The notes under the pieces are model-generated. The model was not told the DNA's origin and did not search any database. It saw nothing but the letters and a program-made list of their open reading frames with translations. Of a DNA stretch of 60,297 nt, positions 20,350 through 51,639 are shown in pieces. Position 1 is the stretch's first letter. Every line of letters starts with the position of its first letter. The translations under genes were made by a program, and so were the position numbers. Source of the stretch: an uncultured Methanobrevibacter sp. (GTDB lineage: Archaea > Methanobacteriota > Methanobacteria > Methanobacteriales > Methanobacteriaceae); the NCBI GenBank assembly GCA_902777885.1, contig CACYVR010000001.1, positions 1-60,297 on the forward strand. The letters are read 5' to 3'.

Positions 20350-20378
20350 TTGAAAACTTTCAAAATTTTTGGTATAAT
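20350..20378 (+). promoter_or_regulatory. family promoter before the tRNA array
   Basis: TTGAAA, 17 bp, TATAATATATATAATG. A 22-codon ATG frame (MKFESFSISTTPALDRQI..) begins at 20386, at or next to the expected +1, without a ribosome site. The transcript runs into the first tRNA at 20476. Confidence 0.85.
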
Positions 20379-20475: not shown

Positions 20476-20553
20476 GGATTGTTGATTGCAATTGGCAGAC
20501 ATCTCATACTCAAAATATGAGTTTTCTGGGTTCGAATCCCAGACAATCTACCA
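20476..20553 (+). tRNA. tRNA-Leu(CAA) with short variable loop
   Basis: Acceptor GGATTGT/ACAATCT, anticodon arm TCATA-CTCAAAA-TATGA, T-arm CTGGG-TTCGAAT-CCCAG, discriminator A and encoded CCA. The variable region is only 5 bases although bacterial leucine tRNAs normally have a long arm. Confidence 0.8.
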
Positions 20554-20625
20554 TTGACGGGGCAGTTATGACAAACGTGGTCTATGTGAAATATTGGAAT
20601 AAACATCTGCCCACGTTTGAAATAT

Positions 20626-20699
20626 GCGGGATTAGGCAAATTGGCAAAGCCGCTTGTCTTAGAAACAAGTGTTTAACAGTTCAAATCTGTTATCCCGTA
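20626..20699 (+). tRNA. tRNA-Leu(TAG) with short variable loop
   Basis: Acceptor GCGGGAT/ATCCCGT, D-stem GGC/GCC, anticodon arm CTTGT-CTTAGAA-ACAAG, T-arm AACAG-TTCAAAT-CTGTT, discriminator A. No CCA is encoded. Short variable loop, as in the previous gene. Confidence 0.8.
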
Positions 20700-20729
20700 C
20701 TTTTAAAGGCTATAGCAAAAATGCTTAAT

Positions 20730-20758
20730 TTGAAAAAATTAAAAATTTTTGTTATAAT
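20730..20758 (+). promoter_or_regulatory. family promoter between tRNA-Leu(TAG) and the GIY-YIG gene
   Basis: TTGAAA, 17 bp, TATAATATATATAGAAAGTTAAG. The leader forms AGAAAGTT/AACTTTCT, then a long AATCATCATC/GATGATGATT stem at about 20791-20866 followed by TTTTTG, which would terminate or attenuate. A start-less frame ending FAPIKTDDDF crosses it. Confidence 0.85.
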
Positions 20759-20967
20759 ATATATAGAAAGTTAAGAAAAAACTTTCTAAATCATCATCGA
20801 CATTTATACAAGCAAAGACTTTTAAATCAGGGACATTTGCGCCAATAAAGACTGATGATGATTTTTGAAAATTAAGAAAGAGGAAGCGAAAGGTTTGGCC
20901 GCCTATGCGAGATAAGAGTGCTCCTATCACTCAGCTCTTAAAAATATTTCAATAGGAGTGAAATTAT

Positions 20968-21876
20968 ATGGAAAGAATTTGTGGAATTTATAAAATAACA
21001 AATAAAATCAATGGTCATAGCTATATCGGTCAGAGTGTAAATATATATGAGAGATGGCATAGCCATAAGTATGCTGATTGTAAACCATCTGCTATACACT
21101 TTGCTATTAAAAAGTATGGGTTGGAAAATTTTAATTTTGAAATCTTAGAGAGATGTTCCAGAGAACAGCTCAACGAGAGAGAGATTTACTGGATAGAATA
21201 TTACAACACCTATAAAGACGGATATAATTTAACCATTGGTGGTTCAGCTCCCATACTTTATGATTATAAAGAAATTTATGAATTATGGATAAGTGGTCTA
21301 TCTTGCAAAGAAATCCAAAACAAGCTGAAATGTGGCGATGGAGTTATTACTCAAGCATTGAGATATTATAATATTTCTGAGAAAGAAGTAAGAGCAAGAA
21401 TAGTAAACAATAAACCTATTGTTGCAATAGACGTTTTAACTCATAAGCCTTTAAAGGTATTTTCTTCAATTCGGAAAGCAAAATTATTTTTCGACAATAA
21501 TTTATTGCAAGAGGGCGCACTGGCAAGGAATATTAAAAAAGGTTTTAGATGGAAAGGGTACATTTGGGAATATTTAAATAAGAATAATTCTCCCAAAGAA
21601 AATTTATCAAATGAAGAATTTTTAAAATATCAACAAAGTCCTTTAAAAACTTATACACAAGAGCAAAAAGAACAATTTTCTTTATTAAACAGAAAAGTTG
21701 AAAGACCAACAAGAGAAGAATTAAAAAATAAAATAAGAGCTTTACCTTTTGTTCAAATAGGTAAATTATATGGTGTTACTGATAACACTATAAGAAAATG
21801 GTGTGATTATTATAACTTACCCCGCCGAGTAAAAGACATAAAACAATATGCTGATGAGGAGTGGGATAAATTGTAA
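20968..21876 (+). CDS. GIY-YIG homing endonuclease
   Basis: 302 residues. The catalytic domain is at 1-95: G6-I-Y8, then Y19-I-G21, R29 and a glutamate in the LNEREIYWIEYY helix, all as in GIY-YIG nucleases. A NUMOD-like DNA-binding module follows (IYELWISGLSCKEIQNKLK, PIVAIDVLTHKPLKVFSSI), then a C-terminal helix-turn-helix (IGKLYGVTDNTIRKWCDYY). It is free-standing inside the tRNA array, between two tRNA-Leu genes. RBS AATAGGAGTG. A group I intron is not visible around it. Likely spreads by cutting tRNA-cluster alleles. Confidence 0.9.
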   Translation: MERICGIYKITNKINGHSYIGQSVNIYERWHSHKYADCKPSAIHFAIKKYGLENFNFEILERCSREQLNEREIYWIEYYNTYKDGYNLTIGGSAPILYDYKEIYELWISGLSCKEIQNKLKCGDGVITQALRYYNISEKEVRARIVNNKPIVAIDVLTHKPLKVFSSIRKAKLFFDNNLLQEGALARNIKKGFRWKGYIWEYLNKNNSPKENLSNEEFLKYQQSPLKTYTQEQKEQFSLLNRKVERPTREELKNKIRALPFVQIGKLYGVTDNTIRKWCDYYNLPRRVKDIKQYADEEWDKL

Positions 21877-21885
21877 TAGGTATAT

Positions 21886-21974
21886 GGAGGCGTGGTGCAG
21901 CAGGCTGAGACACACTGAACTTAAAATTCAGTACATTAGAAACATCGAGGGTTCGATCCCCTCCGCCTCTACCA
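21886..21974 (+). tRNA. tRNA-Leu(TAA)
   Basis: Acceptor GGAGGCG/CGCCTCT, anticodon arm CTGAA-CTTAAAA-TTCAG, long variable arm as expected for leucine, T-arm GAGGG-TTCGATC-CCCTC, discriminator A and encoded CCA. Structurally normal, unlike the two leucine tRNAs upstream. Confidence 0.9.
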
Positions 21975-22194
21975 GCTATCGTTTGGTACCCGATATAAAA
22001 GTATGTGTACTGGGCTAACCAATGAACCCGCGCTCAAGAAGTTGACGTCATCTTGGCATAAGCAAAGAATGATGAGGGTAATGCAGTGAAACTAAATCGG
22101 CTGTCCTGTTTTCGTATACTTCGCAGATATATAGAAAGTAACTTGGAGTGACTTCCGTCCCAACGAGTGTTGCAACACAACGGAGTAGATATCT
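21975..22194 (+). other. structured spacer in the tRNA array
   Basis: No normal tRNA is found. A CAAGA/TCTTG stem around a loop containing TGACGTCA and a CTTCCGT/ACGGAG stem around TGTTGCAACA are present. The density of stems suggests further degenerate tRNA-like or processing elements. Confidence 0.35.
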
Positions 22195-22280
22195 GGGTGA
22201 GTAAACCGTTAAAGAGACGGGTGAGTCTGTAAAACTCATACCTATGGTTCGAGTGGGAGCGTTACCCTCTTCACCCACCA
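22195..22280 (+). tRNA. tRNA-Tyr(GTA) with altered D- and T-loops
   Basis: Acceptor GGGTGAG/TTCACCC, anticodon arm TGAGT-CTGTAAA-ACTCA, long variable arm (ACC-TAT-GGT) as expected for Tyr, discriminator A and encoded CCA. The T-loop reads AGCGTTA instead of TTCRANT, and the D-loop lacks the GG pair. Confidence 0.75.
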
Positions 22281-22481
22281 ACGGGTTTCGGATTAGATGT
22301 TGACCACGAGTAATGATTGCAAGTTACAAAGGTCTATCACTGAATAAAAAAACTTCGAAAGAAGAACTGCAAGTACTTGACTCCGATATAGCATACCCGT
22401 ACCAGAATAGCGGCATATGTTTGCGGACATATGGGAGATGAAAACCTACTCCATGCCAATAGGAAATGATTGGCACTACAT
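22281..22481 (+). other. spacer with possible tRNA-Ala(TGC)-like arm
   Basis: The stem GTAAT/GTTAC near 22312-22329 carries an 8-base loop containing ATTGCAA, an Ala-type anticodon context. No matching acceptor or T-arm is clear. A TTCGAAAGAA hairpin follows. Confidence 0.3.
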
Positions 22482-22553
22482 GGAGGATTAGTTTAATCAG
22501 TAAAACGCGCGGCTGATAATCGCGTAAAAGAGGAGCATAGCCTCTATCCTCCA
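22482..22553 (+). tRNA. tRNA-Ile(GAT) with altered T-loop
   Basis: Exactly 72 bases: acceptor GGAGGAT/ATCCTCC, D-arm GTTT-AATCAGTA-AAAC, anticodon arm CGCGG-CTGATAA-TCGCG, T-stem AGAGG/CCTCT. The T-loop is AGCATAG, and position 18 of the D-loop is A instead of G, a paired change with the T-loop. No CCA is encoded. Confidence 0.8.
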
Positions 22554-22627
22554 CTTAGGTTATGGCTACTTACCTTAAAAGTATAGAGTTCCGTGGATAA
22601 TCTCCGCCATTAAAATCCATATAATAT

Positions 22628-28002: not shown

Positions 28003-29463
28003 ATGAATAATAATTTAAAGTATACAGAAAAATCAGCTTTAGCTTTTAAATCAACACTATCAAAGGTTTATGATATGTTTGCTTTTGGAGGTGCGTATCG
28101 AAATCGTTCAGATGAAGATGTCATACTCTTATTTAGCGAAGCTTATGATGAAAACCCTGATTTGGCGTTGAAGTGTCTGTTCTATCTTCGCGATATTAGA
28201 GGAGTCGGTCAGGGTGAGCGTCGTTTCTTTGACGTTTGTTATAGATGGCTAGTTCAGACACATCCCCGCACAGCAACGAAACTTCTTCAATATCTTCCTG
28301 AATATGGGCGTTGGGATGAAGTTCTTAAAGTTACAGAGGGAACGAATTGTTGGGATAATGCAGTTGATCTTATTCAACATCAGCTGAAAGAAGATATCCG
28401 TTCTAACGGTCACCCCTCACTTTGCGCAAAGTGGATGCCGTCAGAAAATGCATCAAGTCAGGACACTGTCGCTCTTGCTAGCAACTTACGCAAGTCTTTG
28501 AACTTGACAAGTCGTCAGTATAGAAAGATGCTTTCAGAGCTTCGTGCTCAGATTAAACTCGTTGAAAGCCAGATGTCTCAGAATCATTGGGAAGAGATTC
28601 AGTTTGATAAACTACCCTCAAAAGCAGGTATGAAGTATCGTGCAGCTTTTGGACGTAATCCTATTACTTCAGAAAAGTATAGAAACTTTATGAATAACAA
28701 GGAAACAAAAGTAAACGCAGGAACACTTTATCCTTATGAAATTACTCATAAAGCTCGCGTTGGCTCTTTCTATTACGATTCTAATGATGTTGCCGTACTT
28801 GATAAGTATTGGAACAACCTTAAAGATTATTTTAATGGAGCAGACAACAGCATCATGTGTGTTTGCGATTTTTCTGGCTCAATGACTTGGAGCGGTTATC
28901 AGAATGTTCTTCCTATTGATATATCTCTGAGCCTTGGCATTTATACAGCGGAGAGAATGGGTGGTCCTTTTAAGAATAGTTTTATTTCCTTTTCCAACCG
29001 TCCTCAGTTTCATAGAGTATATGGCGACACAATAGTGGACAAGGTTAAGAATGTTCTGCGGACAGCAGAAGTTGCAAATACTAACTTGCCCGCTGTATTT
29101 GACCTATTTTACGATATGGTTGAAGATGGACGCGCAAACAGTGATGACTTGCCTAAAACCCTTGTTATTGTTTCCGATATGGAGATTGACACCGGATCAA
29201 ACTTTAGAAGCAAGTCGGAGGCAAGAACAACTATGGACCGAATCGCTGTTAAGTGGGCGGCGGCTGGTTTGAGATTCCCCAACGTTGTGTATTGGAATTG
29301 TAACGCAAGAAACAATACCATTCTTCAAGAACCGTCTTCTCGAATCACTTATGTGAGTGGGTGTTCCCCATCTATTTTTGAACAAGTTCTTTCTGGAAAA
29401 AGTGGAACGGAACTAATGTTACAGATATTACAGAGTAATCGTTATGAACCAATTAAAAGCTAA
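28003..29463 (+). CDS. TROVE/Ro60-like protein with vWA domain (DUF2828-type)
   Basis: 486 residues. The N-terminal helical-repeat part (DLALKCLFYLRDIRGVGQGE, YLPEYGRWDEVLK) matches the DUF2828/TROVE superfamily ring that in Ro60 binds misfolded and Y RNAs. The C-terminal half is a von Willebrand A domain with MIDAS DFSGSM (D at about 289), a later threonine region NTNLPAVFDLF and VSDMEID. Acts in the cytoplasm, probably as an RNA-binding scaffold. Richer codons than the flanking endonucleases. The start may be secondary because of the upstream insertion. Confidence 0.8.
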   Translation: MNNNLKYTEKSALAFKSTLSKVYDMFAFGGAYRNRSDEDVILLFSEAYDENPDLALKCLFYLRDIRGVGQGERRFFDVCYRWLVQTHPRTATKLLQYLPEYGRWDEVLKVTEGTNCWDNAVDLIQHQLKEDIRSNGHPSLCAKWMPSENASSQDTVALASNLRKSLNLTSRQYRKMLSELRAQIKLVESQMSQNHWEEIQFDKLPSKAGMKYRAAFGRNPITSEKYRNFMNNKETKVNAGTLYPYEITHKARVGSFYYDSNDVAVLDKYWNNLKDYFNGADNSIMCVCDFSGSMTWSGYQNVLPIDISLSLGIYTAERMGGPFKNSFISFSNRPQFHRVYGDTIVDKVKNVLRTAEVANTNLPAVFDLFYDMVEDGRANSDDLPKTLVIVSDMEIDTGSNFRSKSEARTTMDRIAVKWAAAGLRFPNVVYWNCNARNNTILQEPSSRITYVSGCSPSIFEQVLSGKSGTELMLQILQSNRYEPIKS

Positions 29464-38323: not shown

Positions 38324-40597
38324 ATGAAAAATAAAATTTATGATACTTTAAGAGAAAATCTCATAACAGACAAAAAGTGCTATCCTACGCTATCAGATCA
38401 AATGCAAAGATTTGTACAGATAGGCTTTACTTCTTATGATGGAAATGAGGATTTTCTTATGCCACCAACAGAAAAAACAAAAAAGCTATGGGATAAATTA
38501 CAACAATTACAAAAAGAAGAACAAAAAAACGGTGGTATACTAGATATGGATACAGATATTGTATCTACAATCACGTCCCATTCCCCCGGATACCTTGATA
38601 AAAAAAATGAAGTAATAGTTGGTTTACAAACAAATAAACCATTAAAGCGAGCGTTTATGCCTTTTGGTGGAATTAGGATGGCAGAACAGGCTTGCACAAC
38701 GAATGGTTATGTTCCATCTGGTGAACTCCATAAAATTTTCACAGAATATCATACAACGCATTCTGATGCTGTTTTTAGGATGTATAACAATGAGATAAAA
38801 AAATGTAGACATAATCATATTATTACTGGCTTGCCGGACACATATGGGCGAGGCCGCATCATTGGCGACTACAGACGAATAGCTCTGTTTGGAACAGATT
38901 ATTTAATTCAAGAGAAAAAAGAAGATATTAAAGAATTACACCAACAATTATCTTTTTTTGAGAAAATTGATGATAAACTTAAATTACTTGATGAGCTTGC
39001 ACAACAAGTACAAGCTCTTAAAAATATGACAACAATGGCGGATTTTTATGGATATGATATATCAAAACCTGCAAAAAACGCAAGAGAAGCGGTTCAATGG
39101 TTATATTTTGGTTATCTCGCTGCAATTAAATCGCAAAATGGCGCGGCAATGAGCGTTGGCAGAGTGTCTACTTTTTTAGATATTTATATTGAGCAAGATA
39201 TTCAGAATGGAGACCTTACAGAAAGCGAAGCACAAGAGTTAATTGACCAATTTGTATTAAAGCTACGCATGGTTCGCTTTGCTCGTATTCCCTCCTATAA
39301 TGAATTGTTTTCTGGTGATCCTGTATGGGCAACTCTTGAGATTGCGGGAATGCTTAATGATAAAAAACATATGGTCACAAAAACAGATTTCAGATTTCTT
39401 CATACTCTTGAGAACATGGGTCCTTCACCAGAACCAAATCTTACAGTTCTTTGGTCAGATAAACTTCCAGAAAACTTCAAAAAATATGCAGCAAAGATTT
39501 CAATAAATACAAGTTCAATTCAATATGAAAACGACGATCTAATGCGTAAATATTGGGGAAATGATTATTCTATTTGTTGTTGCGTATCGGCAGCAAAAAC
39601 TGGCGCATCACTTCAATTTTTTGGTGCTAGAGTAAATTTAGCCAAGTGTTTACTATATGCTATCAATGGTGGCATTGATGAAAAAACCTTTGAGCAAATT
39701 GGTCCAATAGAACCACCTCTTAAACAAGAAATTTTAGATTTTAAAACAGTATTAAAAAGATATGATAAATATCTTGCTTGGCTCGCGCTAGTATATATTG
39801 AAGCTCTTAACATCATTCATTATTGTCATGACAAATATTATTATGAAGCATCAGAAATGGCTTTAATTGATACGTATCCAGAACGCGTTCTTGCAACTGG
39901 AATCGCGGGGTTGTCTCATGTAGCAGATTCTTTAAGTGCAATTAAATACGCAAAAGTAAGACCAATCTATAATAAAGATGGCATTGCTGTTGATTATTGT
40001 GTTGAAGGAGATTTTCCTCGATATGGTAATGATGATGATAGAGTAGATGACATTGCAAAATGGGTTATGAAAGTATTTAGTAAACATTTAAAAAATAATA
40101 AAACATATAGAAATATTCCAATTACAACATCCCTATTAACTATTACTTCAAATGTTGTATATGGAAAAGCTACTGGCGCAACCCCAGACGGAAGAGCCGC
40201 ATGGACGCCATTCTCACCGGGCGCAAATCCAAGCTATGGCGCAGAAACCAATGGATTGCTTGCATCATTAAATTCAGTTGCAAAAATGCCATATGATTTA
40301 GCTCTTGATGGTATTTCAAATACTCAAACAATTAGCCCAGATGCTATTGGACATAATGAAGAAGAAAGAAAAGAAAATCTTATTGCTGTGCTTGATGGAT
40401 ACTTTAATCAAGGCGGACAACATTTAAATGTTAATATTTTTGGGACAGAAAAGCTAATAGATGCAATGGAGCACCCAGAGAAAGAGGAGTATGCAAATTT
40501 TACAATTCGAGTGTCAGGGTATGCTGTTAAGTTTATTAATTTAACAAAAGAACAACAACTCGACGTAATTCAACGGACTTGCCACAAGGCAATGTAA
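38324..40597 (+). CDS. pflB: pyruvate formate-lyase (glycyl-radical formate acetyltransferase)
   Basis: 757 residues, essentially the full length of bacterial PFL (about 760). The enzyme turns pyruvate and CoA into acetyl-CoA and formate without oxygen. The active-site cysteines are at 418 and 419 within SICCCVSA (a third cysteine follows), then [21 protein letters not shown]. The glycyl-radical loop RVSGYAVKF has its glycine at about 732. Also [21 protein letters not shown] and [10 protein letters not shown] are typical. No activating enzyme (PflA) is in the window, so a host activase would be needed. Preceded by the CodY-like gene in one operon. Confidence 0.95.
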
Positions 40598-50475: not shown

Positions 50476-51639
50476 ATGATAAGTAATAAAAAATATTTTG
50501 TGGCTCTTGTTAATTCATCAAAAGCTTGTCAATTCACTACTTATTATCACTATTCAAAGCAGCCTTTCCGTCAAGCAAAATTAAACCTTGGGGTTTTTAA
50601 TAAAGAAACTCAGCAATTGGTAGGTGTAATGCAATGGGGACGGTCTTTTTCAAAAGATATTAAACTTGAAAGATATATTAAAGAGGACATTGATATCAAT
50701 CAATATTTTGAATTAAATCGCTTTTGTATGGCTGAAAATGAAGGAAAGAATTCTGAAAGTCAAGCCCTCTCTTTGGGAATTAAATATATTAAAAAATATC
50801 ATCCAGAAATTAAGTTGTTGGTTTCTTATTCTGGCAGAAGAGAAGGAAAATATGGATACATCTATCAAGCGACTAACTGGGAATATTTAGGATATTTTTT
50901 GTCTAATGCTTTTTGGAATATCGACGGAATAGAAAAACATACATTAACAGTTCAGCAAGAGTTTCAAAAGCATAAGAAAGCAAATGAAGATTTAAAAAGT
51001 TATTTAAATAGAACGCATAGCTATGCTGTTCAGACATGGACAAAACAATTTATTTATATCCAAAGACTTGATAAGCATTTATCACCCGCGATAGACCCTC
51101 TACCGTATCCTAAACCGTCAAATGAATTCCCCATAAAAACAAAAGAAATAATCTACTGTAATGGAGCGATTCCTGATATTAAAACAGAAGAAAAAGAAGC
51201 TCCACTTTTCTTTTTTGAAGAAGATGAGCCATTGTTTACGCCGCACGCTCTTCGTAGGCAAGCTCGACGAGAAAGAGGTGAAAAGATTCATATCGGAACA
51301 CGTAATTCAGTTGCCCAATATGATTTATCTGGAAAATTAGAAACAACGTATTTAAATATGACCGAGGCTGCAAAAGCTGGCTATCACTATGATGGCATTA
51401 AGACAGCTTCTAAAAATAATACTGTTTATAAAAATAAATTTTTTCGCTTATACCCTATGAACAAAATACCTTTAAATAATATTGAACTTAATTATTTTTG
51501 TATTATAAATGAAAAAATGTTTTTTAAAGCAAAAGATGTCGCAGAGGAATTTCATATTTCAAGACAAGCAGTATATGCTTCTAAGAAAAGGCAAGGAAAA
51601 TTTATTAATGGTTGCGCAGTTATCTGGGGAAATTTATAA
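50476..51639 (+). CDS. Mom-like DNA modification enzyme fused to a NUMOD1-type domain
   Basis: 387 residues. The first about 230 match the phage Mu Mom GNAT-like family: VGVMQWG, FELNRFCMAENEGKNSESQA, LLVSYSGRREGKYGYIYQAT, WEYLGYF. Mom adds an unusual acylated group to adenine and blocks restriction enzymes. Residues about 285-330 (VAQYDLSGKLETTYLNMTEA, then FFRLY) are a NUMOD1-like DNA-binding module known from homing endonucleases, followed by a final helix-turn-helix (KDVAEEFHISRQAVYASKKR). The fusion may give sequence preference to the modification. Confidence 0.75.
   Translation: MISNKKYFVALVNSSKACQFTTYYHYSKQPFRQAKLNLGVFNKETQQLVGVMQWGRSFSKDIKLERYIKEDIDINQYFELNRFCMAENEGKNSESQALSLGIKYIKKYHPEIKLLVSYSGRREGKYGYIYQATNWEYLGYFLSNAFWNIDGIEKHTLTVQQEFQKHKKANEDLKSYLNRTHSYAVQTWTKQFIYIQRLDKHLSPAIDPLPYPKPSNEFPIKTKEIIYCNGAIPDIKTEEKEAPLFFFEEDEPLFTPHALRRQARRERGEKIHIGTRNSVAQYDLSGKLETTYLNMTEAAKAGYHYDGIKTASKNNTVYKNKFFRLYPMNKIPLNNIELNYFCIINEKMFFKAKDVAEEFHISRQAVYASKKRQGKFINGCAVIWGNL

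Follow-up and report, generated by a model that had tools for sequence, protein, structure and literature searches.

Three tRNAs encoded in a 60,297-nucleotide stretch of DNA (the window) assembled from an uncultured Methanobrevibacter sp. carry a paired change at the elbow, where D-loop and T-loop meet. In an ordinary tRNA elbow G18 pairs with U55 (as pseudouridine, Psi55), G19 pairs with C56, and T54 stands with A58. In tRNA-Tyr, tRNA-Ile and tRNA-Cys of the window the letters at positions 18 and 55 are A and G. We consider it quite probable that these tRNAs function with an elbow held together by a different tertiary pair, in which A18 would face G55 in place of G18-U55, with G19-C56 retained. 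The paired swap recurs in many phages and in one cellular tRNA, and hence looks like a working alternative and not like decay. The covariation described below points to a spatial contact between A18 and G55, and the tRNAs would presumably be charged and used in translation.

Swapped tRNAs of the window

The tRNA cluster of the window spans about 20476-26889. Direct reading gave GGGTGAG-TA..CCG-TTAAAGAGA-CGG-G-TGAGTCTGTAAAACTCA-TACCTATGGTTCGA-GTGGG-AGCGTTA-CCCTC-TTCACCC-A-CCA for tRNA-Tyr, GGAGGAT-TA-GTTT-AATCAGTA-AAAC-G-CGCGGCTGATAATCGCG-TAAA-AGAGG-AGCATAG-CCTCT-ATCCTCC-A for tRNA-Ile and GCGGTGG-T-CAAG-CAGT-CTTG-GTA-GATGTCTGCAAAACATC-TTTTA-GTGTG-TGCAACT-CACAC-CCACCGC-T-CCA for tRNA-Cys. These readings bear out the original prediction, made from the letters of the window, that the T-loops of tRNA-Tyr and tRNA-Ile begin with AGCRT, that their D-loops lack GG and that tRNA-Cys has the T-loop TGCAACT. 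All three fold as cloverleafs (z-scores against shuffles of -2.1, -3.2 and -2.5 for Tyr, Ile and Cys) with the layout of elongator tRNAs: a 7-bp acceptor stem, 5-bp anticodon and T-stems, 7-nt anticodon and T-loops, and U33. The T-stem of tRNA-Tyr holds one T-T mismatch. The three share the cloverleaf, stem lengths, G19-C56, R57 and G53-C61 with canonical elongators but have A18 and G55 for G18 and U55, and tRNA-Tyr and tRNA-Ile also have A54/U58 and a purine at position 60.

The dinucleotide AG is present in every D-loop, within AAAGAGA (Tyr), CAGTA (Ile) and CAGT (Cys), and stands with G55-C56 and no canonical GG; position 18 of tRNA-Cys is presumed. The D-loops measure 9 nt in tRNA-Tyr and 8 nt in tRNA-Ile, both with G19 and C56, and 4 nt in tRNA-Cys, which keeps C56. 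Because AG is kept in each D-loop, G19-C56 would be intact and only the 18-55 contact swapped. The original prediction had named both contacts; its 18-55 part stands, and 19-56 is kept in all three tRNAs. Tyr and Ile carry an additional, separate change of positions 54/58/60 from U-A-Y to A-U-R, and tRNA-Cys retains U54-A58. Of the three, only tRNA-Ile is reported by ARAGORN, and the Rfam tRNA model did not match tRNA-Tyr or tRNA-Cys even at E<=10. The swapped elbow thus explains why phage tRNAs are missed by standard annotation (two of three here).

Table 1. Positions of the swapped tRNAs and associated elements in the window, unless another locus is named.
Feature	Position	Strand	Basis
tRNA-Tyr(GTA), class II, CCA encoded	22195..22280	+	structure-only scan, fold, orthologues in related phages; missed by ARAGORN and Rfam
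tRNA-Tyr A18-G19	22213..22214	+	register fixed by L052 orthologue TTAAGGCAGG
tRNA-Tyr T-loop AGCGTTA = A54 G55 C56 G57 T58 T59 A60	22258..22264	+	direct reading
tRNA-Ile(GAT)	22482..22553	+	ARAGORN, Rfam 51.2 bits, fold z -3.15
tRNA-Ile A18-G19, D-loop AATCAGTA	22499..22500	+	
tRNA-Ile T-loop AGCATAG = A54 G55 C56 A57 T58 A59 G60	22534..22540	+	
tRNA-Cys(GCA), CCA encoded, short D-arm CAAG-CAGT-CTTG	23122..23194	+	structure-only scan, fold
tRNA-Cys A-G within 4-nt D-loop, presumed 18-19	23135..23136	+	position inferred
tRNA-Cys T-loop TGCAACT = T54 G55 C56 A57 A58 C59 T60	23172..23178	+	
tRNA-Pro(TGG), sister swap A19-U56, D-loop AGTTTGATA, T-loop TTTGAGT	25834..25910	+	
Stem-ACAGCAA element, window	23796-23922, 23929-24024, 24110-24238, 26570-26642, 26676-26751		
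Stem-ACAGCAA element, other loci	L026 6525, L016 2315, L033 6699, L056 7658, L049 9834, others		

Covariation of positions 18 and 55

To compare phage tRNAs, loci were picked by a neighbouring protein and scanned for tRNAs by structure, no D- or T-loop letters being required; the counts cover T-loops with C or U at position 56 and a purine at position 57. After removal of motif-selected genes the full set comprised 1,428 non-redundant tRNAs from 175 phage loci. Among those with G55, 101 had AG in the D-loop, none had GG only and 3 had neither, whereas among those with U55, 1,270 had GG and 5 had AG. Eight of the 101 also have GG elsewhere in the D-loop, and scoring these as GG gives 93 against 8. 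With protein-selected loci only, clustered, the counts were 17 AG and 0 GG for G55, and 3 AG and 413 GG for U55. In the 38 loci of mixed state 411 of 416 tRNAs were concordant, and 5,000 within-locus shuffles reached at most 339.

We also scanned 2.9 million viral contigs (IMG/VR) for the T-loop AGCRT with the D-loop dinucleotide left free. This yielded 41 genes in 40 stretches, every one with AG. Within an identical D-arm frame, AG combined with canonical TTCRA gave 3 matches and GG with TTCRA at least 120. The exact T-arm pattern of tRNA-Ile found no match in the viral contigs, and a BLAST search with a swapped tRNA-Gly found none in named phages. The coordination of the two loops that the original prediction proposed is thus strongly supported by covariation, shuffles and the Tyr orthologues described below, and some of the related phages in which it advised looking do carry the paired swap.

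That the genes are degenerate pseudogenes is highly improbable. The T-T mismatch of tRNA-Tyr and the very short D-arm of tRNA-Cys might suggest decay, but the mismatch is common to canonical Tyr orthologues, and the acceptor, anticodon and T-stems of swapped tRNAs are paired as well as those of canonical phage tRNAs (0.29 mismatches per tRNA with G55 vs 0.26 with U55). Paired changes are not expected from decay, which is contradicted by the 41 of 41 AG genes, the covariation in 1,428 tRNAs and the within-locus shuffles.

Separable modules of the elbow

Positions 54, 58 and 60 vary separately from 18-55. Pyrimidine 60 accompanies U54-A58 in 1,184 of 1,202 tRNAs with U55 and in 39 of 40 with G55, and purine 60 accompanies A54-U58 in 36 of 36 with G55 and 29 of 42 with U55. 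G54-G58 goes with purine 60 in 23 of 25 cases. The replacement of U54-A58 plus pyrimidine 60 by A54-U58 plus purine 60 in tRNA-Tyr and tRNA-Ile would thus form a second, separable T-loop module. TGCRA tRNAs retain U54 and A58, and ATCRT tRNAs retain U55, so loss of T54 is separable from loss of Psi55. Suppressor tRNAs with altered D- and T-loops from the Steinberg group reportedly include G54-G58 pairs; those were selected in the laboratory, whereas G54-G58 is seen here in natural tRNAs.

Position 56 offers a sister swap, A19-U56, in which U56 goes with a D-loop GA (18 GA, 3 GG). It occurs in tRNA-Pro of the window and in tRNA-Ile(GAU) of phage T5, whose record describes an anticodon mutant as an amber suppressor.

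Occurrence in phages and cells

Swapped tRNAs cover 30 anticodons. In contig G062, 38 of 42 tRNA-like genes have G55, and a few of the remaining four may be false calls. The shares are 15 of 18 in L091 and 7 of 10 in L103; the AGCRT pattern had served to retrieve these two loci and L095, which belongs to G062, and the fractions therefore describe selected contigs. On a stretch of G062 (L310) ARAGORN found 21 genes and the structure scan 38. The cultured Fusobacterium phage FNU2 carries a swapped tRNA-Cys and a swapped tRNA with anticodon CAT, both absent from its record. Separately, tRNAs with a CTA anticodon, labelled Pyl by ARAGORN, lie at 4649-4723 of L310 and 2029-2102 of L013, and the copy in G062 is canonical among swapped ones.

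In the collection of cellular genomes the pattern occurred in 21 stretches, 19 of them a tRNA-Thr(GGU) of HIMB59-like marine Alphaproteobacteria. This swapped gene shows conservation over the long term, being identical over 74 of 74 nt in 19 of the 32 genomes of the order. Its neighbours are metabolic genes whose translations resemble pyrC, dicarboxylate carrier, glutamate synthase, dcd, murA and hisG. In four sister genomes the matching gene has GG and the T-loop GTCAG, a G54-G58 elbow. In G061, a possibly incomplete genome, the swapped tRNA-Thr has the sole GGU anticodon among the tRNAs recovered; tRNA-Thr(UGU) might also read its codons. Recurrence in independent assemblies, in FNU2 and in 19 cellular genomes contradicts a sequencing or assembly error, to which we give practically no credence.

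Specialised non-translating or decoy tRNAs would be a further explanation, modelled on the non-proteinogenic tRNA-Gly of staphylococci, and an improbable one. Those isoacceptors likewise lack G18-G19, but by their D-loops they have UU or CU at 18-19 (PMC4052509), they comprise one isotype and they serve the cell wall. The window tRNAs have AG and anticodons for Tyr, Ile and Cys. The swap extends to a nearly full anticodon set in one phage, and no second tRNA appears to share the GGU anticodon of the cellular tRNA-Thr, both of which argue against decoys. Pyrrolysine tRNA (tRNA-Pyl) and type II mitochondrial tRNAs also lack GG and T-Psi-C motifs (PMC7609411). In those the D-loop is shrunken or the contact between D- and T-loop lost, whereas the swapped tRNAs have mostly ordinary loops and keep G19-C56; tRNA-Tyr, tRNA-Ile and tRNA-Cys do not combine a reduced D-loop with loss of 19-56.

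Switching between related phages

The Tyr orthologues of related phages show GG with TTCGA (L052), AG with TGCGA (L020) and AG with AGCGT (window), with D-stems and anticodon arms that hardly differ. The Tyr states interleave on the DUF2828 protein tree, with five changes most parsimonious and at least three forced by well-supported branches; sister pairs of opposite state are L020/L052 (support 100/100) and L044/L018 (98/97). The tree protein of the window (DUF2828/DUF7788, PHROG 'RNA-binding protein', 28003-29463) adjoins tRNA genes in many of the loci L009-L056; a search of the genome-collection contigs with it gave no relatives. The Ile tRNAs of L034 and L032 combine A18 with U55 (TTCRA), a state that is a plausible A18-U55 intermediate.

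Several points weigh against working tRNAs with an A18-G55 pair. Structure, expression and charging of the swapped tRNAs are presumed from sequence. Dependence between related genes and between tRNAs of a single phage makes the association look stronger in Fisher p-values than it is, and position 18 is set by motif and not by coordinates. Since tRNA genes are exchangeable between phages, some of the switches may be gene replacements. Most G55 loci also hold many canonical tRNAs, as does the window (3 swapped among 17 scored), which simple escape from one elbow-reading enzyme does not predict.

Possible reasons for the swap

G55 cannot become Psi55, A18 cannot become 2'-O-methylguanosine (Gm18), and A54/U58 removes the targets of T54 and 1-methyladenosine 58 (m1A58) formation, so these modifications are lost. 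The evasion of modification enzymes suggested in the original prediction holds to the extent that loss of the target bases follows from the letters; evasion as the purpose, whether of these enzymes or of the nucleases that it also named, would be a hypothesis. TruB makes Psi55 and TrmH makes Gm18 (PMC7912444). Psi55 is dispensable for viability of E. coli, and a strain deleted for truB served in a study that proposed base-specific contacts of AriB in the D-loop and in which expressed T5 tRNAs countered an AriB-containing defence (PMC12409363). By analogy with these contacts and this counteraction, defences that read the elbow are plausible.

Our leading guess, a tentative one that falls somewhat short of even chances, is that the swap shields phage tRNAs from a reader of G18/U55, either a host defence that destroys tRNA or a modifying or quality-control step. 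The RNA ligase of the window resembles T4 Rnl1 (phrog_562) and G062 has two RNA-ligase matches, consistent with exposure to tRNA damage. The Pfam matches of G062, which cover part of its proteins, include kinase, PP2C, PARP, NUDIX and RNA ligases, and none is a clear tRNase. Phage tRNAs with anticodon-loop changes escape anticodon nucleases (PMC10264068) and, like the tRNAs described here, depart from host tRNAs at sites that may matter for defence; that work concerns the anticodon loop and does not mention the D- or T-loop.

Compensated drift, which we rank almost as likely as insensitivity to a G18/U55 reader, accepts the pair and disputes its reason: under weak constraint A18-G55 would be tolerated without benefit and reached over a shallow valley through A18-U55-like intermediates. 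Such intermediates exist, the Ile tRNAs of L034 and L032 being among five AG/U55 tRNAs in all. A single phage usually has tRNAs in both states, the elbow tolerates several combinations at 54/58/60, and the swap is also present in a cellular lineage whose sister group has G54-G58 elbows. The near-wholly converted phages (G062 and L091), on the other side, exceed the expectation of uniform drift. A further reading, which we regard as rather unlikely, makes A18-G55 a self-mark that spares phage tRNAs when a host defence, or the phage itself in destroying host tRNAs, reads G18/U55.

Other features of the tRNA clusters

A recurrent element of the tRNA clusters in many phage loci consists of a stem of 8-10 bp, often AAGRCACAT/ATGTGYCTT, with ACAGCAA after it (Table 1). 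Several of the longer copies can be read as tRNAs in circular permutation, the 3' half preceding the 5' half and the anticodon loop holding the break. A structural search for such permuted tRNAs gave 27 candidates, 11 of them with the closing stem; block-shuffled sequence gave 1 and 0. The copy at 23796-23922 may represent a tRNA-Gly(TCC) whose anticodon loop holds an insert of about 55 nt that bears the stem and motif. Another element encloses a Leu-like tRNA (24146-24224) with G33 and a possible TTA anticodon, not called by ARAGORN. A 57-nt tRNA-like sequence at 25645-25701 (Rfam 38.3 bits) has acceptor, D- and T-arms, apparently without an anticodon arm. By eye, promoter-like stretches of the TTGAAA-N17-TATAAT type precede tRNAs at 20350, 20730, 23060-23122, 23433-23493 and 25330. 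The window further encodes a pyruvate-formate-lyase-like glycyl radical enzyme (38324-40597) and a Mom-family DNA modification protein (50476-51639), both phage-encoded. Its phage contig (G000 C1, 138,782 bp) was placed in a genome bin of 1.77 Mb, possibly by misbinning.

Significance

The G18-Psi55 contact is regarded as nearly universal. Full-text literature searches for A18 with G55 returned nothing relevant; subscription papers lay mostly outside their scope, and priority is not established. Reviews on the conservation of T-loops, on non-canonical tRNAs and on the elbow do not mention phage. The swap supports the 18-55 pair with direct evidence from evolution, and as a recurring compensated replacement it supplies natural tRNAs for testing, module by module, what Psi55, Gm18, T54 and m1A58 contribute. 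Should evasion be the reason, the swap would indicate defences that recognise the elbow of tRNA; a self-mark, if true, would amount to a second tRNA elbow code, working in bacteria without Psi55.
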